Source: Pseudoscleropodium purum
Lineage: Eukaryota; Streptophyta; Bryopsida; Hypnales; Brachytheciaceae
Length of the DNA stretch: 64,000 bases
Reading direction: 5' to 3'
Assembly: GCA_963969395.1 (NCBI GenBank)
Contig: OZ017797.1
Location: 15,376,001 to 15,440,000, forward strand
Made by a program: the position numbers and the translations under genes. A model generated the notes under the pieces. The model was not told the DNA's origin, did no database searches, and was given only the letters and a program-made list of their open reading frames with translations. How positions within the stretch are numbered: position 1 is the stretch's first letter; the number at the start of each line of letters is the position of its first letter. Positions 17,701 to 61,587 of the stretch are shown in pieces.

Positions 17701-20700
17701 AGTTATGAACGGTGTAAAAGAGAGTAAATAAACATATATTAAAGTCTTGTGATAATCTTGTGAATATACAAGAATGGAGAGTCCATAATAAAATCATGCG
17801 GACCCCATGAAGGTACAAAATATCTTGATAAAACTAAATGCTTGTTGAATTCCAACTTCATCGTTAGAAACAAGCACAATCTCTCTTGATATAAGAAAGG
17901 GTTACAAGGGTAAGACGTGTAGAGTTGAAACATAAATCTTTGTTGTAAACACGTCGAGTTGAAAAAGAATACATTCTGTACCAGATATAGTTGGCGTAGG
18001 AGTGGATGGACTAGCCGGAACACCAGCAGCCTGAGTAGTAGAATGATTCCCATCAGTGCCTCGGGAAGCCACTGCTGTGCGGTCAGCAGGAGCTGGGCTT
18101 TCCGGTTGTGTCCGTGTTCTTCCTGGAAGATGAGAGAGAAAACAGTTGCTTCACGAACCAGACAGTTCACCAAAACTAAGATAAAAAAGAAAAAGGCACA
18201 AGAGTAGGACAAATGGAAAGCACAAGAGTCGGAGGCAAACCAGCAGCAGGACTGGCAGCAGCGCTGCGACTTGATGGCATTGGGGAAGCCAAAGAGATGT
18301 TTACTTCTCCTCTCCATGCTGCATCGCAACCCCTGGCCGCTGCAGTAGCTGCACGAACCTCCTGCAAACCATTGAACCACAAGGCATTCCTATGAGATAG
18401 ACATTCCAACATGAACAAATGAAGCAATACGTTTCTGCTACAAATAAAGAAAAATGAAAACTTCTGAAACTCCAACATCTTTCTGCTCTGCCCACATGCT
18501 TACCGATGCAACCACCTCCTCATTTGTCTCTCGTACAAATGGGTGCTCCAATAGACCTGGCCATGTAAGGCGATTTTGGGAAACCTGCCAGATAGGAACT
18601 AGCGAATGGTGAGGCGCGTACATAATGGTTATATCACTGCGTAGCACTGTCAACAGAGAGCTATTCAGAGGTCAATCCAGGAGTAGTTCAGGGATAGGTA
18701 TGTGATAACCGGAGACATATTGAACACCCAAGAAAACTGATTCACTGGCATTGACATTCGGTATTGGGAAAAATGTTCTGAAACTAAACGGACATGAGGA
18801 AAACAATTCAAAGTGAAACACGCCCATAAACGAAAAAAAATGCGGCCTAATTAGCAGGCATGCAAGTTGGAACAGTACCTTATTGAGAAGCCCTTTCAAG
18901 AAGCTCTTGAAATTTGGGCTAATGCTATCCGGGTACTTTACAGGATCCTGCATATGAACACAGCATTTAGTTTCAAGGCATGCATGCACTAGATGAGAAC
19001 GATTAACACGCAAAAATCCAAAAGATGATGCAGGGTTTCGGTGGAATCTACTGTGAACCTCAAAAATACATGTGAGAACATTGTCAAATATCTTAAATGA
19101 AACTGAACAGGAACCAAAATGACACGGAAAAGTGATTTCTATAATAAACTACCGCGTCCTCTGCCACCTGAATAACGTCACGGAGAAGTCTCGATTGCCT
19201 CGACAAATTGAAAAAAAAACCTTTGGTCTTGGTTAGGGATCTACCTTAACAATATGTCTTATAAGTGTATACACTGAATTTGTGTAGAAAGGTGGCTGAC
19301 CAACATATAGCTCATATCTGATCCAGATAACCAAGCAACCACCACAACAGAGCACCAGAGAGTTACTCAACTTTCAAACTTGCTGAGGTATCACGATAAA
19401 GATTACTAGAATATACACGAATAATTAGCTAGTACACCCTAATGTTAGGCCACATGGTTAAAACAAGCAGAGATACGCTACGAGGGGTTCTGTCCCTTGT
19501 AGCACACTATAGATCTTGCTTGCTTTTCGAGTGAGGGACCATTCAAACTTCCTCACATTCACCACAGATGCAGCTTTGTCAATGCTTCGATCCAAAGCCA
19601 AGAACTTGGAGGCAGACCTAAGTCCTATTATCTACGTGAATCCGAATTTGATTCGGTATAATATCAAGGTTCTTTTTCATTTTGTTCGCATATACATGAG
19701 TTCGTGCGACATTTGCACGATATCGATATGACCAATTATTGAGGCTTCAGATGCGCTTCAGAACAAAACTGAGGACAAGCTGAATAGGCCACCCTTGATA
19801 ATATGCAAAGGAACTTACAGAATAACACCGAGAGACCAGAGATCAGCTGTGTGGTTGTAAGGCTGCTCTCGAACTAGCTCCGGAGCCATGTACAGCGGTG
19901 TTCCTAAGTGTGCAAATCATTCGAACAATTAGTGGTAAAAGCGGAGAACAATGAGATAAAGCTAAAGCGGCTTGTATGAACAAAGTAAACCTCAGCATAA
20001 CTCACACTCAAATGCAAGAGAAATTATCAGAACTTTTTAATACTGGGATATACCTTTGATGGACCGCAAAACCATAGTGTTGCAAGACATCGCCCTTGCA
20101 AAACCAAAGTCACAGAGCTGAAAAGGCAAGAGAACAAGGATTAGTTACAGCTTTCAGAGCATACTGTAACTTGGAATACTAGAGGATGTCACTTTTTGTC
20201 AAAAACTTCTTCACAAGTTTAATGAGTTGTTTTAAGGCATTCTGTATAAAGATAATTACCTTCACTATTCCTCCAGCACCAATCAATATATTTTGTGGTT
20301 TCATATCTCTGTGAATGATTCGGTGAGAGTGAAGGTAATGTAGCGCTTTAACCTGCAGCTCACGAGACCAAGAACTCTCAGATTCTGGATAGGGTGAGAA
20401 CAACTTCTACGTTGCAGAAATTATTCGTAGAAACCAAACCAAAATTCAATCCAAAGATATCCACACGTGCAGTGAGAATTAGAGAGGGATGTTCATGCTC
20501 ACCAATTGTTTTGCTATAGCCTGTACTTGAGCCTCAGGAAGATTCTTGTCATCCTCCAGGATTTCAAACAGCTCACCCTATACAACACCCATCACGATAG
20601 ATCCAATATTTTATCGACAATCGCAGACATTAAAACTCAATACAGTACACTAAACAAACTAGTACAGAAGAACTTCGAGGTTTTCTTCCTTACATACACC

Positions 20701-21373
20701 ATGCCATCAGAAAATTCATTCCGAAACTTCCTACCTGATGAACCCTACTTCCTGTCTCGGTCATCAAAAGGTCTAGCACGACCATTCCTCAGAAATGCGA
20801 CCTGGTGACAAGATGTAGTAAAAGAAGAGCATACCTGACCAAACTCAGTCACAACACAGAACTCCTGAGGGCTTTCGAAAGCATCCAGCATTTCTATGAT
20901 GTTTTCATGCTTCAATTGTCGCAATATCTGGACAGAAAGATCAGAAAACAGAGTCAAGCATCCCAACTGCCTCTTGTGTTTTCAAGCAACACTTTCGTGA
21001 CAAATCGATTACTCATAGCAGATCAAATAGACGTTGAACAGGACAGAAGGGAAAACGCATACTTGAGAGAACACATGAAAACTTACCTCAATCTCTTGTC
21101 TGAGATTCTCGATATCCTTGTCACTCTTGCCATGCTTGAGTATGAATTTCATTGCGACAGTCTGCAAGACAACCAAGCATTCGCAATACATTTGTTGTCT
21201 GGATTTTTGGAGCAAAACATGCGAGGCAATTTAAGAACGCAATAGCTAATCTGTTGAATTGGTAAGTGGTTGCAGGAACACACCTGACCCGTGTACTTCC
21301 TTCGGCCTTTGTAGACTTTCCCAAACGATCCCTCTCCCACTAATTCTATTACATGATAATTTTCCACGCCCAT
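11714..21373 (-). CDS. TIO: FUSED-family serine/threonine kinase with ARM/HEAT C-terminus (TWO-IN-ONE orthologue), 24 exons, 1384 aa
   Basis: Plant FUSED/TIO is a phragmoplast kinase needed for cell-plate growth in cytokinesis, acting with kinesin-12 proteins. Exons: 21373..21284, 21161..21087, 20927..20835, 20577..20503, 20352..20260, 20117..20054, 19903..19819, 19317..19245, 18947..18879, 18584..18504, 18361..18241, 18122..17982, 17684..17534, 17310..17139, 17039..16914, 16783..16546, 16301..15976, 15775..15394, 15107..14311, 13964..13728, 13117..12974, 12831..12751, 12552..12364 and 11965..11714. All phases join. The kinase domain (about 1-260) is complete: glycine loop GEGSFGKV (13-20), Lys35 in [12 protein letters not shown] (Asp127), DFG (145-147) and APE (170-172). 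After a Ser/Pro/Ala-rich linker, [17 protein letters not shown] and a long helical-repeat region follow. The C-terminus ([41 protein letters not shown]) is typical of TIO. Exon 13 uses a GC donor, and the 3' limit of exon 15 is the least certain junction. The length is close to Arabidopsis TIO (about 1320). Confidence 0.93.
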
Positions 21374-21881
21374 CCTGTACGACATAGTTGACAAGTGAGC
21401 ATCAGCTACTGTCCGTCTGATGCGAGAACAAAGACCTAAACTTTTGTATTACGTTCATGATAATAAATACCAGAACTAAGCACTTACGCCGACAGGCAGC
21501 AGATTAGATGGTCCAAACCATCGTGAATTGCATTCACATAGGCTCACTCCGTTTACAACATGAATCACTTCCTTAACCAGTAAAGCTGAATCACATCCAC
21601 TACAGCAGTCTGAATAAACACAGCTGCTTTGCAAGCTCGCAGACTCAACACAACTGCGAGATTCAAAGAAAATTGAGGTACATAGCCACAACGGATCATC
21701 AGGAGTACATCCATAGTAACGTTCACCAAAATACCCCTGCATTGTCTCATACTTAATTTTCAGCTGCACAAGCACTTTCGGTAGACAACTACCTGAAAAT
21801 GCAGAGGAATCAGCTCGCAGCGACAAATAATAAACTCCTCGTCCTCCTCGAGCTTCTCGTCGCCGTCGGATTTTCGTACCT

Positions 21882-28798: not shown

Positions 28799-31700
28799 TT
28801 AATTCAACTTACCACATTTGCAATACTTTGAATTAGGCAAACACTTTGGAGCATAAAAATACCTGTTTATATAATCAAAAATACAATAATTAGACTTGCA
28901 AGATTTTCTTTAGTTTAAACATTTTAAAATTTGTCAAAAATTAGAAAAATTACTTTTTTTTAAATGTAAAAAAATAATTTAAATTGACAATATCTTTGTA
29001 ATCTAACTTACTCAGAAGAAGATCTGCCAACCCTCTTTGGTACAATGCCTCTCAAACAATTGTTGCTTACATCTCTGCAATTATGGATTAATACAATGTT
29101 AATTTTTAATAATCAATCAATATTCCTATTAAATAACATGAATTTTATTATAAAAGAAATCTACTAAATAATAGTAATCAATTTTATTTTAAAAAACACT
29201 TACAAATGGTCAAATCTATTTATGCGCATATGAGGAAGCCTTCCACTAAATTGGTTATTTGCCAAATTTCTGTATAAAATTTATTAATGAATCAATGAAC
29301 ATTTGAATTTTAATTGTATCATATTAAATTATTTTCTAAAATATAGATACATTTATTAAATATAATTTTCAATGTGATTTTTATTTAATATTTTATAATG
29401 TCACAAAACTTTTTTTTAAAGTTCAAACTTTTAATCTTCAAGAAAAAAATCTTTGCAATTTAAAACTTTATTCTTATCTTTTCTTTTTGTTTTATAAAGG
29501 AAACATATGTCTTCTTGAGAAACAAATGTAGTAACAAGTAATAAAAAAAATATTTGAATGTAATTTCAAATGACTTACATAGAATTGACTTTAGATTTGA
29601 AGAAAGTACGTGGTACATTTCCTTCAAGCATGTTGTTACTCAAATCTCTACATCCCACCAACCATAACCAAGTTTATTGAAGCTTTTGATAAACTGTTAA
29701 TGAATAACATTGAATAATAGACTACCACCATACATGTATAATTTTGCTTGGTATAAAATATATCTGATGTAAATGCTTTATTTTGATGTCAAATTACTTA
29801 CATTTGTTTCAAATTTGGAAGTAAGTGATGCAAATTATCTGAAATGTCTCCAGTAAATGCATTATTTGACAAGTCCCTGCATCCATATTTAATTAATAAA
29901 ACAATTTTTTACAAATAAGATCTTTATAGAAATATAAAAAACAATTTATACATCAAGTTTCCATAATGTTTATGTTAACAATCTTAAACTCTTATTTATA
30001 AAAATTCAATTTAATTTCATATGACAACATTGTTTGTTGTAATGACTTCTACAATATTTTCAATAAACTCAATATCATCAAAATGAATTGTACAAGAACT
30101 TAAGATTGGGTAGGCCATTGATGACGCCTTCATTTACTTGAGCTCTGAAATTTACCAAAAAATACATAAAATTTAGTATTGTATACATTTAATATTGTAA
30201 CGGTTTAGAAGTTATACTATATTATAAATTATAACATCATAATTGCATTTAATACTTAGCTTTTGTATAGAAAAATCATGTACGTGGAAATATTTTAATA
30301 TTAATCCTAAATTTCATCTTCTTACAAGTTTAAATGAGTTGAATCTGATAAACGCCGCATATTATTATTCTCATTAGTGATTTTTTGTTTTTTTTCTTGC
30401 TTACTATCATCACATGGCGGTGTTCCAGGCCTATACAAAGTTGTAATATTACAAAGAAATAATAATTATATATCCCATATCAAAATATCGGAATATAACA
30501 AACTTAAATACTTATGCTTATTCTTAACAATTTTTTTTTAAATTTTAAATTTAAATAAACTAATAATTTATGATACTTGTCAAATTTAATTTTTTCATAC
30601 TTAGATACAATTAAGATTCTTCATTTTAACAAAAGCAACTTGTCGAAAATATTTCTTAGATTAAGTAACTAAGATATTTCATATTCTATTATCTAATTAA
30701 TAAAAAATTAATTGAGTCATTTTAGTTTTCACTCTATATTGACACATTTATATTTATGTTCAATTTTAGCTAAGTTTAAATGCACTTTCATTTCAATATA
30801 AAAAATTGATTGCTTACGTTGGAGGTGTGTTTTCAGGAAAAGGATTTGTGAAGTTGAGTCTACATACAATGAGGATTTGAAAATTATTTATATATATAAT
30901 AGAATAAATTACATTTTACAAAAATAAATATCTATATAATTAAATATTCTATTATTAAAATTTTAAAATTTTAAAAAATTTAAATCACAAAAATAAAATT
31001 TGAAGCTTACAATGGTTGACTTGGAATTGTGAAATTTGGTGGTGTAATAATCGGCATTGGAGGAAGACTTGGAATAGTGAAATTTGGAGGAATGAATTGA
31101 GGTAAAGGTGGAAGTGTTGGAAGTGTGAAATTAGGGGGTGCAAATTGAGGTAAATGCGGAAGGGTTGGAATGGTGAAATTAGGATGTGTAAATTGGGGCA
31201 ATGGTGGAAAAGTTGGGAGAGAGAAATTTGGAGGTGTGACTTGAGGCAAGGGTGGTATTGTAGGGAATGTAAGATTTGGAAGTGTAAAACTCGGTATAGG
31301 TGGAAAAGTAAAGTTTGGAGGTGTATACTGAGGTAATGGAGGAAATGTAAAGTTAGGCAATGGCAATTGTGGAAGCGGCGGAAAAGTGAAGTTGGGTGGT
31401 GTAAATTGTGGAAGTGGTGGAAAGGTGAAGTTGGGTGGTGTAAATTGAGGGAGAGGAGGAAGTGTTGGAAATGTGAAGTTGGGTGGTGTAAATTGAGGGA
31501 GAGGAGGGAAGGTAAAGTTTGGAGGTGTATATTGAGGAAGTGGAGGAAATGTAAAATTAGGAGGTGTAAATTGTGGAAGTGGTGGAAAGGTGAAGTTGGG
31601 TGGTGTAAATTGAGGAAGAGGAGGAAGTGTTGGAAATGTGAAGTTGGGTGGTGTAAATTGAGGGAGAGGAGGGAAGGTAAAGTTTGGAGGTGTATATTGA

Positions 31701-34700
31701 GGAAGTGGAGGAAATGTAAAATTTGGAGGTATAAATTGTGGAAGTGGTGGAAAGGTGAAGTTAGGGGGTGCAAGTTCAGGTAAAGGAGGAAGTGTTGGAA
31801 ATGTGAAATTTGGTGGAGTAAATTGAGGGAGTGGGGGAAGTGTAAAGTTTGGAGTTATATTTTGAGGAAGTGGTGGAAACGTGAAGTTAGGGGGCATAAA
31901 TTCAGATAGAGGAGGAAGTGTTGGAAATGTGAAATTTGGTGGTGTAAATTGAGGGAGCGGGGGAAAGGTAAAGTTTGGAGGTATATATTGAGGAAGTGGA
32001 GGAAATGTAAAATTAGGTGGGATAAATTCAGAGAGAGGTGGAAACGTAAAGTTAGGGGGTGTAAATTCAGGGAGAGGAGGAAGTGTTGGAATTGTGAAAT
32101 TTGGTGGTATAAATTGAGGAAGCGGGGGAAAGGTAAAGTTTGGAGGTATATATTGAGGAAGTGGAGGGAATGTAAAATTAGGCGGAGTAAATTCGGGAAG
32201 AGGTGGAAAGGTGAAGTTGGGAAGTGTAAATTGAGGTAGAGGAGGGAGTGTTGGTAATGTGAAATTTGGTGGTGTAAATTGAGGGAGGGGGGGAAGGGTA
32301 AAGTTAGGAGGTATATATTGAGGAAGTGGAGGAAAAGTAAGATTTGGAGGTGTAAATTGAGGTAGTGGTGGAAATGTGAAATTTGGTGGAGTAAATTGAG
32401 GAAGTGGTGGAAGTGTAAAATTTGGTGGTAAATACTCCGGGAGTGGCGGAAATGTAAAGTTAGGGGGTGTAAATTGAGGTAGTGGTGGAAGTGTGATGTT
32501 AGGAGGGACAAATTGAGGAAATGGTGGAATGGTAAAATTTGGAGGAGTGAGTTGAGGTAGTGGTGGAAATGTGAAGTTTGGAGGTGTCAATTCTGGTAGT
32601 GGTGGAAATGTGAAATTTGGAGGTGTATATTGAGGGAGTGGTGGAAAGACAGGAAGTGTGAAATTTGGTGGTGAAAATTGAGGTAGAGGAGGGAAAGTGA
32701 AATTTTCAGGGAAAGTTATGGTTCTATTGAAGAAACGAAATAATGGACTCTTTTGAAGAGGTGGAAATGATGGAAATGTAAAATTCCTACAAAGTCAACA
32801 ATTAGAGGTTAAATCAATATTGTTTTATTATGTAAATAGAAATGTAGTAGAATAGTAATTAATAACCATTGAATTATTTAAATATTGAAAAAAATTGAAG
32901 TTTGAGGTGTAAAAAAGTAACCATTGAATATGCTTAACTATTTTTAATAAAGAAAAAGAAGGCATGATGTAATGTAGGAAATGTCTTACGATGTTGACAA
33001 TGACAATCCTTCTGTTGTATTCCTGATCAATTGATAAGCACATAGTCATCAATCTACTTTAAGTTGAAGTTAGATGTTCCTATTTAGTGTATTTCGATTG
33101 TTTTATAATTTGTAAATCATCACATTTAAAAAAGAAGAAGAAGCAAGTTGTTAAGGATGTCATCAAAGAAAAATGGCTTACTGTGAAGGTAGCCATGGTG
33201 GCCAAAACATAAACATTGGACTACAATTGCTGCAAATTATACAAACCACCCAAAGATAATTATATAAATGATCACTCCAACATTTTTTTGAAGTTCCTAT
33301 AAATTTGTTTCATAATGCAATCATTCATTTATTTTATAAAGCAACCATTGAAAATAGTACTATTAAAGTGAAGAAAACACGTTATGGAGTATAAAGATTA
33401 ACCATGCTGGATTGAAGAGAAAATTAGAGACATTCCTGCATCACATCATAAAACAAATATTGTTTTAAATTGAATTTGTACTCTACATTCCAAATTCTAA
33501 ATTCATCTTAAATCAAAAAATATATTAGAATGTTTTTTCATAACAATTCTTGATTGAGCAAATTTATAAAACTAATTTAATCTTATATGTGTTGAGTTGA
33601 ATATTTTAAATAAAATCAATATCAGAGTAAATAATGATGCAACTTACATATAAGGTATAGTATAATTTGGATAGCCACCAAATCTGTAAAAACAAGCCAT
33701 GTCCATATTATATTTATTCATGCCCATATCTAGCTTGATGAATTTATCAATAAATTTGGCCAATGTCATCCTACTTTTGGTTCAAAATTTGAAAGACAAA
33801 ATAAACTCAATTAGAAGTTAGGAACATACGGTGGAGACAATTCAAGTGGTGGAAATCCAGAAAAATCAAATGTAGGGATTGTCCAATTTGATGTATGGAA
33901 TGTTCTGCATTTTCAATCGAGGTACCAAAATTGTTATCATTAATAGCAAGTCTACAATTACATTAGCTAACCAATATTTATTGTACTATACACCAATATT
34001 TTTTTCCAAATATTTTGGTCTAATTACAAATTTGTAGGAATTCAAGGAAGAAAATGTGATTATTTAGTTAGATTATATAGTAAATTTTTTGAAGTTTTTT
34101 TATAGTTGAAATATGCAAATTACTATGCAAAATTCTAAGTTTTCTAATTAATAGCTTCAATTAAAGTTTGGAAACTTCCTAATGAATATAGAAATATGAG
34201 ATTTATTGCCATTAAATCAATCCAATCACACTTGAAAAGGAATAAATAAGAAAATAGAAAAATGAATATGTACCTTTTGTAGAGCATCTACAAAAAGTGT
34301 TGGATTGAGATATTCAATCAAGGTTGAATGTTTCAATCCAACTATTGGCCATTAAAAATAAAAGATTTTCCTAGGGTGACTATGTATCACTCTTCTGTGT
34401 GATCCATTTTCTTGAATAATCTATAAATATTCAATCTTTCTCTAACTTTAAACTTGACTTTTACAAAAGAAAACCTATTGACTAATGATGTTGTTCTTAT
34501 TGTCATCCATTACCTCACCATGTACAACTTTGGAAAACATCAATAGTGGTAAGAATATGTAAGTTCAATCATCAAATTTATACATGCATTGATCAATACA
34601 CTTACTACATAATAGTAAATGGGTCAAAGACCATGACACCTAACATGATTACCATAATAAACAAAACCTTTTTAGTTCTAAATAAATTAATAAGGGCTAT

Positions 34701-37700
34701 AATATCTCAAAGATTTATAGTGTTTAGAAAGTGCAAGAGAAGATGCTCATGCAAGTGCACCCTCCTCTTTTCTGTCACCTATTTGACATGGAGGCTATAA
34801 AAGCAACAAGAGAGATCAATTAATTTATGACTTAAACAAAAACTTTGTTATAAGAGTAAGTTGAAAACCAAGTAACATACATATTTGCTGGGGATGGGAG
34901 CGTGCTGTTTGGACACAAGAATGCTCTGCCGGAACCATTTCACAAATTGCAAGACATGAGTACCGACATGATCAAAATCCACGTCAATAGTTCATGTTTT
35001 CCTCTTTAGAAAACATCCTCAAATGATCGTTGTAAGTTAAGATGTAAACATGATAAGGTAAACTAGCCTATGACAGTCCAAATGCCAACCAACCCATCAT
35101 ATGCAAAAAAAATTTAGTGATGCACATTTTGAAAACTAAAATGTAATCCATTAGTACAATTTTGCCTGTGATGGGTTGGCTCCCATTTGGGCTGTCATAG
35201 GCATAGTTACCTTAGCTAACTTAAACTTTGCTTGAATCTGAAGTAATTGATGAGCATGTTTTTGAAAAGACTGAGGCAGAATTTGGTTACTTACAAAGTG
35301 GGTGTGTAACTGATGTTGGTCACGTTTCTGCTTCCCCAATATCATCCCCACGAAAACGCAAAGTATTGTCTTTCAAAAAATTCTCCAAAGTGAAAAACAA
35401 AATAAAAAAATCTGCCATATAATAATTATGAAATTGAAACAATCCTAACTAAATGTATTATTTATTATTATGCTAGATTTTTTTACTTGCAGGGCGTATC
35501 CCAGTCTACAACGAGATCTACACTAATTCATTTCATTAGGTAGGGGAGTCTGAACTTACACTTTCGGAAACTTTGAAAACCACAACACTGGAACCACCAC
35601 AGCTGGTAGTGTGACATTCTGAGGCGTGAACATGACTACTGGCACATTGGGGAGAGTGAAGTTCACGAGAGAGGTGATCGGCACCGGGAAGGAAATGGAC
35701 ACATTTCCTGTTGGCATCCTGCTTGCACCAGCCACATGCCAAAGCAATTGACTTAAGAGAGAAAATAAAATTAACAATTAAAGGGGTCTTTAGAGCTTTG
35801 AATAATGACAGTAATTACAATTTTGATGTTGCTGAATATGTCTAAACCCATTCAAGAATACTCGAAAGTAATCTCAAACAACTGATCAGTTGCAGGGCAA
35901 AGTAAACACTTAGGGCCGCTTCACACATGGGCCCAAGGTTGAGAGTTCGTCGGCCTCCACCAATCAAATTTCAGAAAACCTTGACTTTGGCCTCTCGACC
36001 CTTCACACAAGGCGGCACAATCCAAAGTCCGTCACCTTCCAAAGTGCCTACATGGAAATCCAAGCTCCTACATGGCAATGGCCTCACAACAGACTCTCGA
36101 CCAAAGTTTGGGTTGCCACTTTGTGACGACCCAAACTTTGATCGAGAGTCCATCGAATTGCTCATTTATTGCCCATTTCTTTGGACTCTCACCCAAAGTT
36201 TGCCCATGAACTCCCATGGCCTCTCGACTTGGTTGGCTCATGTGTGAAGCGCCTCTTAGAATGGTTTCAAAAATTCCTTTGTGTTCAAAATCCCGAAATT
36301 GAATTTATCATGATACTGGAGTCCTTGCTATGACTTTGAACGCAGCCTGCTTACTGGCACAGCTTGTTCCCTTGTGTAAAGGAAATCTGAGCTCAATTTG
36401 AAGAGGAGAAGAGAATGATCTGCTTACTGGTCTGAGGTATTGCTGCCTGGTAAGGAGCCCGTCAAATTATTCCCAGCCAAGCTTCTGCACATACTCACAG
36501 CGATTGTCTTTAAATGTCATTGCCACACTAAGTTAAGTTAATATCACACACTAAATTATGAATTAACTTCTAAAGCTGGATTGGCATACAGAAGTTCGAG
36601 AATGGTCAAATCTTACAGCGTCTCCAGGTTCTTGAGGTTCAGTATCCACGATGGAAAAGTTCCATTCAGCTGTGGGTTGGTTGCAATGATCCTGCCAGGA
36701 GGGGGGGGGGGGAGCAATTTCTTGGTTAAAGTTATATATTTAAAAGACACATATCCTCCAACTCAGTTCATTTCCACCTCCATTAGTTAGTGAGGTGGAA
36801 GAGATTTTGAATTAGTAATCTCCAATTGATGAAAATTGTTTTTTCGAAGCAGCTCATTCTCTCACTGTGGAAAATGTAGTAATAGTGATATCATGCTTTT
36901 GGAAGAACACAGACTTCCTGGATATCGAGGCTCTCTTGGGTAATTTTAACAAGGACCCTCCTACAACTGATGAATAATGATATGTCTTTTTCTTGGAAAA
37001 AAAAGTGTTAAACTGATTCGGAAATGTTGCTAAAAAATTCTTGAAAATATGATATTGTGTCTTCCAAGAAATGTCTTGCAAGATCTTTCCATGTCTGTTG
37101 GATATACAAAAGGGAGGTCGAGTTTTGTTTTTTTTGTTTCAAATAGGAGGAAAAAGAGTGGTGTAAGAACGGATGTAAGCGGCTTCTTCTAAGGCAGTCT
37201 AATGTTCAGTAAGTTTTTCTTGCAAATAGTGTGTCTAATCAATATGCCAATAGATATTAATTGAAGAATTCTTATCGGTTCTCGTAATCTATCTCACAGA
37301 TTTTTCAAGTTCCGGAGATCGGCGATGGCCTGAGGAATGGCCCCCAGGAAGGCAGTTTTCCTGATTGTCAAGGACTTTAAGAACTTCATCCGCCGGATGT
37401 CATTCTGCACAGGAAGAGTACATGGTGATCAGACTTACTCAAGGGAATCCACACAAGAATTTCCTGCTGGTAATGAAAATTCAAAACATATGAAAATCAT
37501 CAAGTTCTAAATTATCAAACGTCAAAGCTCAGTTCAGTGCAGAGGTTGATATAAAGCTCACAGGGATGGGTCCAGTGAAGTCTTTACCCTCCAGGGTCCT
37601 GCACAGTGCAAAACAAAAGTATAAAACATCTTATGGAGGTTTCTACATACATCTTTGCCTTCGATTCTGCTTCATATAATATTCTCCAGTTCACTCATGG

Positions 37701-38313
37701 AGTTCTACTTTAAAGCGGGTAATCGAAGCTAACAATGAACGTTGTAATGGCCCCATGCCATATGTTAAACTATCCATCCGCAGGAATTAAAGGCTATAAA
37801 ATAGGTGGCGCAGCAGGAGCTTCATGAAGCCAGAATAAGTAATTAGACCCGTAGCAAATCAAGGTTAGTAGCGGTTCAGAAAGCACGCAAAATTGAAACT
37901 TACAAGCCGGTGACTTCATTCTGAGCACCGTTGCATGTCACCCCTCGCCACGAGCCCGAGCAGACACGGGTCAGCTGCGGATTCCATGACTTCAAAGCAT
38001 TCGGATGCTCCAAGGCTTGCTTGAAAGCCACCATTGCATTCTCTGCAATGAAGCGATGAAGCAATTATATTCATAAGAATGTACGCAATTGGCTCCCGAA
38101 TTGGCTATTCACTGGAATAAATGTATACGTCAGTTTTTATATAATTACCACGGTTTGTAGAAGGCGGCGCCGTTACGTACCTTGGGAGGTGAGATCCCCG
38201 GTGAGATCATCAGCAAATGCAACCGACTTCGCAAGAGGAGCAGCTCCTCCGAAGACACAAAGCACACACACAAGCACCTGCACCAGCTGCAGGGCCCTTG
38301 CCGGTCCACCCAT
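28799..38313 (-). CDS. Secreted leucine-rich-repeat protein with a giant N-glycosylation-sequon/proline repeat domain, 22 exons, about 1093 aa
   Basis: Exons: 38313..38181, 38042..37904, 37598..37562, 37404..37298, 36691..36617, 36484..36428, 35718..35560, 34925..34881, 33904..33830, 33683..33648, 33435..33403, 33229..33182, 33022..32990, 32786..31011, 30859..30818, 30430..30326, 30144..30100, 29876..29802, 29647..29579, 29269..29204, 29074..29012 and 28862..28799. All phases join, nearly all as phase-2 introns. The protein has a signal peptide (residues about 1-33), an LRR N-cap (SGSWRGVTC) and three to four LRRs (LTGSLP type). Small exons each carrying an Asn-X-Ser/Thr-X-Pro-like motif follow, then one 1776-base exon with about 43 sequon repeats (PPNFTFPPLPQF type). 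More LRRs follow (DLSNNAFTGDI, DLSNNMLEGNVP) and a short Cys tail (CLPNSKYCKC). I see no transmembrane segment or kinase, so it should be an extracellular or cell-wall glycoprotein. The 3' end is uncertain: GTAAG follows TGTG at 28813, so either the frame reads on to TAA at 28799 as annotated, or a further intron starts there. The architecture recalls LRR-extensins, but the repeat is not extensin SPPPP. Confidence 0.8.
31011..32786 (-). repeat. 39/48-bp coding minisatellite (PPNFTxPPLPxx repeats) in one exon
   Basis: The exon is built from units of 13 residues (39 bp), interspersed with 16-residue versions (48 bp) that carry an extra TLP. By my count there are about 43 units, nearly every one with an N-F/L/I-T/S sequon. 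A longer-period pattern of three 13-mers plus one 16-mer (55 residues, 165 bp) recurs most regularly between about 31440 and 31800, showing recent higher-order amplification. The frame stays open throughout, so the length is under coding constraint. Confidence 0.9.
35054..35214. mobile_element. Small foldback MITE in an intron of the LRR gene
   Basis: The outer 45 bases are imperfect inverted repeats: 'cctatgacagtccaaatg' near 35068 pairs with 'catttgggctgtcatagg' near 35184, flanked by 'taaggtaa' and 'ttacctta' at the ends. It is about 161 bp and non-coding. It lies in the intron between exons 34925..34881 and 35718..35560. No clear target duplication is seen. Confidence 0.65.
35913..36255. 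mobile_element. PIF/Harbinger-type MITE with TTA target duplication, in an LRR-gene intron
   Basis: The ends are inverted repeats, GGGCCGCTTCACACATGGGC at the left and GAGGCGCTTCACACATGAGC as the reverse complement of the right end. They are flanked on both sides by TTA (35910-35912 and 36256-36258). The 343-bp interior is non-coding and includes a second internal inversion around 'actctcgaccaaagtttggg'. It sits in the intron between exons 36484..36428 and 35718..35560, in more GC-rich DNA than its surroundings. Confidence 0.8.
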
Positions 38314-47660: not shown

Positions 47661-47693
47661 TTGAATCTATGTGGTCAAAACATGAAATTTTTT

Positions 47694-48310
47694 GGGGCCT
47701 TCTTAAACTCTAGCTACTAATGGCTATGGTTTTAGAGATTCAAATTTGTTTTCAATATATGCAAGAATTAGTCAATTGCTAAAATATTTTGGGCCTTCCT
47801 AGACCCCCCTAGCCGTTAACGACTATGATTTGGAAGATTCAAATTTGCTTCCAATATATACAAAAATTAGTCAAATGTTGAAGAATTTCGAGCCTCCCTA
47901 GACATCCAACCATTAATGGCTACAGTTTTGGAGATTCAAATTTGTTTTTAGCATATGCAAGAATTATTCAAATGTTGAAATTTTGTAGATCCTTCTAGAC
48001 CTCTAGCTACTAATGGCTACAATTTTGAGGATTCAAATTGGTTTCTAGCATATGCAAAAATTAATCAAATGTTGAAAAGTTTTGGGCCTTCCTAGACCTC
48101 CAGCCATTAATAGCTATGGTTTGGAGGATTCAAATTTGTTTGTTGTATATGCAAGAATTAGTCAAATACTGAAAAATTTTGGGCCCTTCTAGACTCCCAG
48201 TCGTTAATGGCTATAATTTAAGGGATTCTTATTTGCTTAAAACATATGCTAAAATTTGGTCAAATACTAAAAATTCTAAGCTTTTATAGTGCATAGCCAT
48301 TAACACTACT
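47694..48310. repeat. 97-bp tandem array, about 6.3 copies
   Basis: Successive units start with 'gggccttcctaga'-like sequence near 47694, 47790, 47889, 47988, 48084 and 48181, with a partial one at 48278. Each contains '(c/t)taatggcta', 'gattcaaatttg' and 'atgcaa(a/g)aatta(g)tcaaat'. The spacing is 96-99 bp. Units are diverged, so the array is not recent. It abuts the palindromic repeat. Confidence 0.85.
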
Positions 48311-55599: not shown

Positions 55600-57294
55600 C
55601 TATGGCGCAACAAGACAATATGCCAGCTACCCAAGCACATGCCAACCTTCTTAGGCTACATGAGAGGAGGAGAGTTCGGCCATGGAAGGTGGACCATGTT
55701 GCTCCTATGTTTAGTAATTCATCCAATAATGAGATTCCATATAAAGGAGATGAAAGTAGCGAAGAAGGGGACCCGGACAATCCTCATAGTATGAAGCATA
55801 GGTTTTGTGATTCGACATGGGTACAATTAAATTTCACTTTCTTGCCAAAACCTAAGACATTCGGAGGTGGAAGGGGTCCTACTACATTTTTCTATAATAT
55901 GCCACCCTTTATACAATTGTTTTCTTTATTTTGGCCTTATCCTCTCTTGTAGAAAATTGTGGTAGAGAGTAACCATTATGCAACCACACTGGATGAGCAT
56001 GGAAAAACAAGAGGGGGGCAAAGATGGGTGCATTTGACTGTGAGCACTTTGAAGGCCTATTTAGCCATACGCATTTTTCATGGGGTTGAAGAAGCAACCA
56101 AACATGAGGACTTATTAGAATAAGCAAGGTATTTTTTTCCATTATCCTCGTATTTCTAAAATTTTATCTTGGGCAAGATTTGAAGCAATTATGAGGTGTC
56201 TATACATTACAAATCAATATCTATGTTATAGATAGAGCTTTGTCTGGTTATGACAAAATGGGTCAAGTGCGGTAGCTTGTCCATGACATTAGAGATAGTT
56301 TCAAGTGTGAGTGGTCTTTGGACAAGTTTATTACAATAGACAAAATGATGATTCACTATAAAGGCTCATATTGTCTAGCAAGGCAATATATGCCAAAGAA
56401 GTCTGAGAAATGGGGCATAAAGGTGTGGTACTTGGCAAACTCTTCATCCAAGTATGTTTTCAACTTTGAAATCTATTGTAGGGCCAACCATAATGGACTT
56501 GACAAAGTACCATTGGTGGTTAGTGTGGAGACCGATGTGGCTCACAATGTAGTCATGAGGTTGGTAAATGGTCAAGGGGAAAGGGACATGTAGTTGTCAT
56601 GGACAACTACTTCTCTAGCATAGGCTTGTTTATAGAATTGGCTGCAAAACATATTTATGCAACTGGCACAATGAGGACGAATCGGGTGGGACTACCTATG
56701 GCATTGAGTGCGATTTAAAATTAAAAAAGTTCTCCTCAAGGCACACTAGAATGGAGAATGCATGAATCTTTAGGCATTGCATGTGTATTGTAGAAGGACA
56801 AATGGTGGATTCTCTTCCTTTCTACTCATGCATTGCCAATTCCTTTTCCATGTATAGTAGTACCTATGGTTTCCCATAGGAATGGAAAAAGGAGGGATGC
56901 AATTCAAACCTCCTCTGTCCATTTAGAATATATCACCTACATAAGGGTGGTGGATGTGACGGATCAACTTAGAGCTTCATACTCAAGCCAAACTAAATCG
57001 CATAAGTGGTGGCATAGAGTTTTTTACTTCTTATTAGACACAATTGTAGTCAATATGTGTGTAATCTACCTAGGGCTTTTGCATCAACTCCAGCATCCAA
57101 ACGAACCCATTACTCACCTCCAATTCAAGGCCGATTTGTGTGATGCTCTCATACAAAATTGGCGTGGCCGCAAAACCAAAGTAGATGAAGAAGAAGAACC
57201 ACATCCCCACATGTCAACTTCAAGTCGTTTGAGGCATCCATGCATCACATGTGGGGACCCTAATTGTAGCTTCTACTGTTGCATTTGCAATTAG
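55600..57294 (+). pseudogene. Decayed piggyBac-like transposase (DDE_Tnp_1_7)
   Basis: Four blocks in different frames form one recognisable protein. Block 1 (55602-56120) has GPTTFFYNMPPFIQLFSLFW, an in-frame TAG at 55950, then TLDEHGKTRGGQRWV. Block 2 (about 56240-56593) has CEWSLDKFITIDKMMIHYKG. Block 3 (about 56579-56718, shifted frame) has VVVMDNYFSSIGLF and TGTMRTNRVGLP. Block 4 (56833-57294) has VDVTDQLRASYSSQTKSHKW and ends in a Cys-rich zinc-binding tail, PCITCGDPNCSFYCCICN. These match the order of piggyBac transposases: an N-terminal region, a catalytic core with three Asp motifs (all three still visible) and a C-terminal Cys-rich domain. At least three frame changes and several stops make it inactive. 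Terminal repeats and TTAA duplications were not located. Confidence 0.85.
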
Positions 57295-60914: not shown

Positions 60915-60933
60915 TTAACATTCATCGTTGGAC

Positions 60934-61587
60934 ATGGCGGTAGTATTGAGAACAGTGTCCACCCTGGGTCATTTGACGTGCTCATCGGGTGCAACCACGA
61001 GAGTGTGGTGCGGAATTTCCAAGCCGAACGCCTCCTTCAAAGATCAAGAGACTTCGTTCTGCAAGTCCAAGAACAACGCCGGCTTCTCCCAGGCGCCCGA
61101 TCTTCCATCTCGTTGCCAAGCAGTTGTTGCGGTTTGCCCTCTTCCGACAAGACAAGTTGTTGGAGTTTTGGAGTTGTCAATCCAGACGGAGCACCTCTCA
61201 CCTGCACCAGAGACAATTGAGCAGCACGCAGAGCCCTTACCTCGATCTTTTCTCGCTGAGTCTGTGAATGGTCTCGTAGTCGAGTGTAGTGCTCAAGGGA
61301 GTCGGCCATTGTACTCAAATGTGCTTGCAGAGTTTCAATCGAGCTTCAGCCAGGGAGAGGACCTTGCGAATGCCGATCACAATGTAGTGAAGAAGGCGGT
61401 TCGTGCCGCTCTTGCGACTGCTCCTGGCGACGCCCATCTTATGTCCAAGTTTGCAATGTTCACAGGGAAATTGTTGGGCGACTTGGATGCCGCAGAGGAA
61501 CCTTACATGAAGGCTCTGGAGCTCGCACCACACGATCCTGACATCCAGGCCAACTATGCTCTGTTTCTGTGGCAGTTTGACTCCTAG
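60934..61587 (+). CDS. TPR-like protein, probably plastid-targeted, single exon, 217 aa
   Basis: The first ATG in the frame is at 60934 in good context (GACATGGCG). The N-terminal 60 residues are rich in Ser, Thr, Arg and small residues and poor in acids (MAVVLRTVSTLGHLTCSSGA), like a chloroplast transit peptide. The C-terminal 75 residues form helical TPR-like pairs: VKKAVRAALATAPGDAHLMS, then FTGKLLGDLDAAEEPYMKAL, then ELAPHDPDIQANYALFLWQF. This pattern matches the plant TPR-like proteins in which a chain of helices with 'GDLxxAEExYxxALxxxPxDxxxxxxYAxxxW' repeats occurs. This copy is shorter than the usual family members (about 250-350 residues) and has only about two units. Function unknown; a scaffold role is the family expectation. 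Confidence 0.75.
   Translation: MAVVLRTVSTLGHLTCSSGATTRVWCGISKPNASFKDQETSFCKSKNNAGFSQAPDLPSRCQAVVAVCPLPTRQVVGVLELSIQTEHLSPAPETIEQHAEPLPRSFLAESVNGLVVECSAQGSRPLYSNVLAEFQSSFSQGEDLANADHNVVKKAVRAALATAPGDAHLMSKFAMFTGKLLGDLDAAEEPYMKALELAPHDPDIQANYALFLWQFDS

Follow-up and report, generated by a model that had tools for sequence, protein, structure and literature searches.

A putative secreted leucine-rich repeat protein with a sequon-rich island in the moss Pseudoscleropodium purum

We propose that a gene on the minus strand of a 64,000-nucleotide stretch of the Pseudoscleropodium purum genome (contig OZ017797.1, positions 15,376,001 to 15,440,000; hereafter the window) codes for a secreted, soluble leucine-rich repeat (LRR) glycoprotein in which an island bearing a brush of N-glycans would interrupt a single LRR solenoid, and which would tether or present a ligand in the cell wall. 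On balance, and guardedly, we favour this reading. The gene comprises 23 exons, with junctions placed by hand and checked by script; its start codon lies at 38313 and its stop codon ends at 28799. The predicted product of 1099 amino acids (122.6 kDa without glycans) contains, in order, a likely signal peptide, an LRRNT_2 domain, LRRs, an island of 762 amino acids, further LRRs and a Cys-rich end. The original prediction, a single product spanning these same ends, was right in outline.

Sequon density, selection and a relative in Physcomitrium patens

The island is crowded with N-glycosylation sequons (N-X-S/T), which contain 57 of its 62 Asn residues and occur about once every 13 residues. In 2000 composition shuffles of the island 7.0 +/- 2.4 sequons were obtained, with a maximum of 15, and shuffles in which the prolines were fixed in place gave a mean of 6.9 and again a maximum of 15. 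The whole model carries 59 sequons, 24 of them in its densest 300-residue stretch. Among the 229 proteins collected in this analysis, from which the window model was counted apart, the highest numbers (56 sequons, and 25 in the densest 300 residues) belong to P0121, an uncharacterized protein (isoform X2) of 981 amino acids from the moss Physcomitrium patens. Proline at position +1 or +3 of a sequon blocks or weakens N-glycosylation. The combination N-P-[ST] is absent from the islands of both proteins, and Pro at +3 was found in 2 of 57 sequons in the window protein, whose copies are related to one another, and in 1 of 52 in P. patens, against 18.0 and 12.5 expected from the Pro content.

Exon 15 encodes an array of 43 N-[FIL]-[TS] motifs, 27 of which begin units of 13 amino acids and 12 units of 16 amino acids, while four are irregular; all 44 Asn residues encoded by this exon lie in sequons. 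The 43 units take 31 distinct forms as protein and 41 as DNA, so their likeness lies at the protein level. The count of about 43 given in the original prediction was thus correct, and the near-identity claimed for the units holds for the protein only. Since cutting the units at the sequon motif makes every one of them intact by construction, the array was recut at a PLPQ-like core, upon which 38 of 38 segments carried a sequon, as had been claimed for nearly all units. A Pfam scan of the repeat exon revealed no family match. Exon 15 also has a higher-order period of 165 bp, corresponding to three 13 amino acid units plus one of 16, which suggests local duplication.

In composition the island is 32% Pro, with 26 TP and 79 PP dipeptides, and 17.6% aromatic; its 762 residues include five Lys/Arg and 13 Asp/Glu, and the protein has a run of 594 residues without any Lys or Arg. 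This bears on a very improbable alternative, that tandem units of 13 and 16 amino acids behind a hydrophobic leader form the precursor of many small repeated peptides freed by proteolysis. Such an arrangement fits the layout of the protein; the island, however, has no dibasic site, the Lys/Arg-free run is long, and the flanking LRR halves are conserved in P. patens.

The coding strand of the array exon is pyrimidine-rich, and stretches of 243 and 289 codons are free of stops in a second frame, so the open frame proves little and was rejected as evidence of coding by itself. The GC skew is 0.57 in the 2-kb interval 30001-32000. Read in the true frame, the 13 amino acid units (n=27) have a ratio of nonsynonymous to synonymous change (dN/dS) of 0.075 and the 16 amino acid units (n=12) one of 0.19, the former differing on average at 62% of synonymous and 9% of nonsynonymous sites. 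In the single shifted frame that could be computed the ratio is 0.83; the other three shifted comparisons hit stop codons.

The unit also contains a Thr outside the sequon, which has the same kind of codon and the same history as the sequon Thr and serves as an internal control, helping to separate selection on glycans from repeat copying. With the units cut at the PLPQ-like core (37 of regular length, one 32 amino acid segment of the 38 being dropped), the sequon Asn was retained in 37/37 and the sequon Thr/Ser in 37/37, as against 24/37 for the non-sequon Thr/Ser (Fisher p = 7e-5, which is only a guide since array units are not independent). The units as cut at the sequon were also placed on a tree, after four of the 43 (27, 9, 4 and 8 amino acids) had been dropped; over these 39 there was no amino acid change at the sequon Asn despite five to seven third-base changes, and a single change at the sequon Thr, to Ser, which keeps the sequon, while the non-sequon Thr changed 11-13 times. 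Cutting at the sequon makes it look fixed, and the core-cut recount had the same outcome. From the retention of Asn and Thr relative to the non-sequon Thr, together with the low dN/dS, the glycan sites appear to be what selection keeps, which bears out the view of the sequon/proline array as a selected feature.

Counting the sequon Asn as 0, the Pro codons at positions 4 and 12 never vary among the 39 units and are as fixed as the sequon, so that the proline backbone is also under constraint. Together with the Pro, TP and PP content this speaks for a hydroxyproline-rich wall protein in which the prolines matter rather than the sequons, N-glycosylation being incidental or absent. We consider this improbable. 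The extensin and proline-rich protein hallmarks SPPP, YXY and PPV[YHE] are absent from the islands of both species; TP falls from 26 in the window to 4 in P. patens, where 52 sequons nevertheless persist; and constraint on the sequon Thr greatly exceeds that on the other Thr of the unit. Of the [AST]P dipeptides typical of arabinogalactan-type glycomodules, the window island thus has 26 TP and 5 SP, and that of P. patens 4 TP and 12 SP.

The P. patens protein was recovered with an E-value of 2.3e-85 in a protein search with the island and array, which returned three proteins in total and in which it is the real relative. Like the window protein it has a hydrophobic leader, an N-cap, LRRs, a sequon-rich proline island, a second LRR block and a similar Cys-rich end, and the two share 74.8% identity in the N-terminal LRR half (residues 44-174) and 64.2% in the C-terminal half (970-1078). 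Its island is 659 amino acids long as against 762, with fewer aromatic residues and shorter Lys/Arg-free stretches, and 52 of its 62 Asn lie in sequons with a median spacing of 13; 2000 shuffles gave a mean of 8.2 and a maximum of 18. Unlike the near-identical units of the window its units are diverged and irregular, and its sequons vary widely in the X residue (F 15, I 8, V 7, L 6, and others); the sequons have thus persisted through the drift of the repeats. As far as the two predicted chains go, sequon number and density is kept across the two species.

A generic LRR search with a 523 amino acid construct passed 618 proteins, and the 120 listed look like ordinary LRR proteins by Pfam and by name; the length range of that construct does not extend to the P. 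patens protein. In a profile search it was first of 107, the other 106 being LRR proteins for which BLASTP covered 7-40% of the query. The three homologue searches together span 288-1923 amino acids and scored no more than some 8000 candidates apiece, so that relatives which are longer, split or diverged may have escaped them. The suggestion that the protein is lineage-specific fits in that P. patens yielded the sole relative found, but the design is common to two plants and of an age that let its repeats diverge.

Exon structure of the gene

All features below lie on the minus strand and are listed in the order of transcription.

38181..38313, minus: exon 1, start codon plus a likely signal peptide (MGGPARALQLVQVLVCVLCVFGG...), with hydropathy highest (2.29) at residue 10
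37904..38042, minus: exon 2, LRRNT_2 N-cap (Pfam PF08263) with two Cys
37562..37598, minus: exon 3, LRR1
37298..37404, minus: exon 4, end of LRR1, LRR2 and start of LRR3
36617..36691, minus: exon 5, LRR3
36428..36484, minus: exon 6, initial 13 residues of LRR4 (LSLAGNNLTGSLP), then start of the island with sequon NTS
35560..35718, minus: exon 7, island, three sequons
35295..35327, minus: exon 8, island micro-exon VNVTNISYTPT, two sequons
34881..34904, minus: exon 9, island micro-exon FTLPSPAN, its sequon NIT completed by exon 10
33830..33904, minus: exon 10, island, NWT
33648..33683, minus: exon 11, island, NYT
33403..33435, minus: exon 12, island, NVS; its donor GTTAAT is the least certain boundary
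33182..33229, minus: exon 13, island, NCS followed by P
32990..33022, minus: exon 14, island, NTT
31011..32786, minus: exon 15, array of 43 N-[FIL]-[TS] motifs and one NRT in proline-rich units of 13 or 16 amino acids
30818..30859, minus: exon 16, last sequon, LLNFTNPFPENTPP
30326..30430, minus: exon 17, charged linker, PGTPPCDD...
30094..30144, minus: exon 18, final 11 residues of LRR4 (GVINGLPNLKF)
29802..29876, minus: exon 19, LRR5
29579..29647, minus: exon 20, LRR6
29204..29269, minus: exon 21, LRR7
29012..29074, minus: exon 22, LRR8
28799..28862, minus: exon 23, C-terminal Cys motif (KCLPNSKYCKC) and stop; the P. patens protein ends at the matching place

All 22 introns of the model have GT..AG borders, and phase-2 introns, which are common among LRR exons, join exons 5 to 23 in one open frame. 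Just upstream of exon 15, 8 of 15 in-frame micro-exon candidates on the sense strand bear a sequon; the opposite strand gave no candidates, and ten control strands together gave 5 of 52, so that sequon-bearing candidates are enriched there. That the LRR and repeat exons come from different genes, or that the locus is a pseudogene, is extremely improbable: the weak donor of exon 12 would allow it, whereas the continuous phase-2 frame and the dN/dS values well below 1 argue against it, and P0121 holds every part in one annotated protein. Because the annotation comes from a different plant, it goes far to meet the principal doubt over how the exons are chained, and it agrees with the placing of LRR and repeat exons in one gene and frame.

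GC content declines along the gene in the 5' to 3' direction, in exons from 0.59 to 0.30 and in introns from 0.40 to 0.16, with an intron minimum of 0.12. Intron 6 contains, at 35909-36259, imperfect 25-nt terminal inverted repeats which are 84% complementary and 301 nt apart, with internal palindromes between them; this element looks like a small non-autonomous DNA transposon (miniature inverted-repeat transposable element). An internal GTAAGT in exon 23, just before the stop codon, would permit a longer 3' isoform.

One solenoid or two LRR modules

Plant-type LRRs were expected on both sides of the island, and Pfam families above their cut-offs place them there. The N-terminal half contains LRRNT_2 (38.7 bits, cut-off 20.7), and the C-terminal half LRR_1 (46.1, cut-off 20.6) and LRR_8 (37.5, cut-off 27). 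Alone, the N-terminal half scores just under the cut-offs for LRR_8 (26.5/27), LRR_1 (20.3/20.6) and LRR_14 (32.1/40). When the halves are joined without the island LRR_8 rises to 60.3 bits, and LRR_14 reaches 41.1 (cut-off 40), passing in the joined form only; the P. patens protein matches LRR_8 above its cut-off, at 47.5 bits. By sequence the N-terminal half possesses an N-cap only and the C-terminal half a Cys-rich end only. The island divides LRR4 into 13 and 11 residues, which together make one 24-residue plant LRR, and does so in both species. When join lengths were scored against 226 matched proteins the window protein peaked at 24 (80.6 bits, with 78.2 and 77.3 for the neighbouring lengths). 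Alignments of the joined halves to LRR ectodomains of solved structure also run through the join; with ERL2, for instance, query residues 4-230 match chain residues 6-233.

A single-sequence structure prediction (mean confidence, as predicted local distance difference test or pLDDT, of 31) was discarded. AlphaFold2, run with 25 generic LRR proteins as the alignment, folds both halves as LRR, with 10-residue blocks reaching pLDDT values of up to 97 and 92, and gives most blocks of the island 25-46, that is, predicted disorder.

The original prediction envisaged a secreted rod held between two LRR modules. Two independent modules joined by a glycosylated rod would make a bivalent linker spanning the wall, and this we regard as unlikely. 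It draws on the position of the LRRs at either flank of the island, on the confident folding of each half and on a predicted model that leaves the halves undocked. Against it stand the lack of one cap in each half, the split of LRR4 into 13 + 11 = 24 residues in both species, with joined scores peaking at 24, and the precedent of BRI1, PSKR1 and RPK2, whose islands are described in PMC6749341 as spacers between tandem LRRs of one ectodomain. Our preferred reading is therefore one interrupted solenoid of eight repeats, from which the brush would be looped out; of the earlier picture, likely secretion stands and the two modules appear less probable.

The case for secretion comes from hydropathy. 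Outside the first 40 residues the best 19-residue value is 1.59 at residue 210, within the island, and 1.35 at residue 208 in P. patens; by this measure no hydrophobic stretch with the look of a membrane anchor follows the leader in either species. Secretion is thus probable, given a hydrophobic leader and the lack of any further strongly hydrophobic span. Neither the P. patens protein nor the two scanned portions of the model (359 and 164 amino acids) matched a kinase family.

Under the interrupted-solenoid reading the protein would pass through the endoplasmic reticulum, where oligosaccharyltransferase would fill most of the sequons, and the proline-rich backbone would stay extended in a polyproline II-like form. 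With each residue adding 0.31 nm, a fully extended island would measure up to about 236 nm; as a loop it would reach about half as far. The N-glycans would make a hydrated bottlebrush, keeping soluble an aromatic, charge-poor chain that may need them for solubility, and this brush would entangle or space the chain in the wall. Both LRR halves would pack as one solenoid binding a ligand or partner (a peptide, pectin or protein), which the protein would tether or present in the wall, the weakest step of the proposal. It would work in the manner of the LRR-extensins, the N-glycan brush replacing their O-glycosylated, cross-linked extensin tail.

Several points weigh against this proposal. With respect to the glycans, the units are related by duplication and their counts are not independent, and Phe at the X position of a sequon may be less efficient than some other residues. 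The overall hydropathy of the island (grand average -0.09 in the window, 0.07 in P. patens) is near neutral, so strong aggregation without glycans is not a given. The architecture was found in two species only, and outside the array just nine sequons (of 17 in P. patens and 12 in the window) fall in columns common to both, so that it is sequon density which is conserved, not the exact sites. Turning to the solenoid, in P. patens a join length of 24 stands out only slightly (79.1 bits versus 77.1 and, for 25, 78.3), and since the island borders were chosen from the LRR consensus, the register is support and not proof. The AlphaFold2 model does not dock the halves (rows with both halves on one chain have a root-mean-square deviation of 13-24 A; predicted template modelling score 0.40), and it assigns low confidence to the Cys-rich end, with pLDDT <50 for residues 951-981.

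Other features of the window and comparison with known systems

Elsewhere in the window, a Pkinase match (40.0 bits, cut-off 31.7) lies at 20179-20403 on the minus strand, within 20179-21445; the adjoining open frame at 21149-21445 (minus) has no Pfam match, and resembles the start of a plant FUSED/TIO kinase. Two open frames within 56276-57291 (plus) match the transposase family DDE_Tnp_1_7, which we take to be of the piggyBac type. An open frame at 60919-61584 (plus) shows a weak match to TPR_14 (20.0 bits, under the cut-off of 23.5), and 47691-48219 is a tandem repeat of 5.4 copies of a unit of about 97 bp, with 75% matches. Scans of the 64-kb window with Rfam, at gathering score, and for tRNAs gave no match.

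Among known plant proteins the LRR-extensins (LRX/PEX) are secreted LRR proteins fused to a proline-rich repetitive region, a plan which the probably secreted window protein shares, and the LRR structures matched include those of LRX2 and LRX8. In PMC4769139 five LRXs are reported in P. patens and the extensin part, with Ser-Pro3-5, is C-terminal. In contrast, the proline-rich part of the window protein lies inside the LRRs and bears N-sequons, and neither island holds a single SPPP or YXY, so the protein does not belong to the LRR-extensins. On our reading of one ectodomain, a non-LRR spacer within the LRRs would be shared with BRI1, PSKR1 and RPK2. The islands of those proteins are short folded domains in membrane kinases; those of the window and P. 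patens proteins measure 659-762 amino acids and are predicted to be disordered, with no kinase and no membrane span seen. Receptor-like proteins and polygalacturonase-inhibiting proteins (PGIPs) likewise combine LRRNT with plant-type LRRs and lack a kinase. The former differ from the window protein in that no membrane span was seen in it by hydropathy; the latter, which are secreted, are among its closest folds, and we know of no such island in them.

The ice-binding role once suggested found no support. Neither island contains a copy of NxVxG or NxVxxG, the grass-type motifs of ice-recrystallisation inhibitors. The fold and sequence matches do include an ice-binding plant LRR protein (6w78), alongside many other LRR proteins, so the match is generic, and we judge an ice-binding or desiccation-protective glycoprotein to be a highly improbable explanation.

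The two weak matches of the island search, P0122 and P0123 (E 2.8e-5 and 2.6e-4), are acyltransferases of the NRF type (PF20146) without LRRs, which like the island contain an N-x-T-[FLI]-P stretch. Residues 90-389 of P0122 carry 11 sequons (mean 3.4 and maximum 11 in 1000 shuffles), and residues 128-427 of P0123 carry 15 (mean 3.7 and maximum 10 in 1000 shuffles). Perhaps these sequon/proline stretches represent a convergent array outside the LRR proteins.

In the literature searched, outside which subscription journals mostly fall, no LRR protein is described as carrying more than 50 N-sequons in an array, and the array motifs, searched as text, returned no paper. The available part of a survey of plant wall N-glycoproteins (PMC9738366) has no usable passage on site numbers. 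This accords with the original statement that no LRR protein with an N-sequon/proline array of such size was known, since no matching described family was found. Such proteins can be missed, because 594 consecutive residues offer no trypsin site and because P0121 is annotated merely as uncharacterized. P. patens, in which knockouts are routine, gives a tractable test case.

LRR proteins, LRR islands and proline-rich wall proteins are all known; what is new, as far as our search found, is their combination with more than 50 N-sequons. The proline-rich glycoproteins of plant walls are usually described as O-glycosylated, and here selection on a proline-rich stretch appears to act on sites for N-glycans. 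If most sites were shown to be occupied, the protein would deserve the name of a new class. We advance tentatively, as a possibility short of our main proposal, that it represents a class of extracellular plant glycoproteins not described before. In such a protein more than 50 N-glycan chains would form a bottlebrush looped out from an LRR solenoid, with glycan density and not exact position selected, and the class would be the N-glycan counterpart of the O-glycosylated extensins and arabinogalactan proteins.

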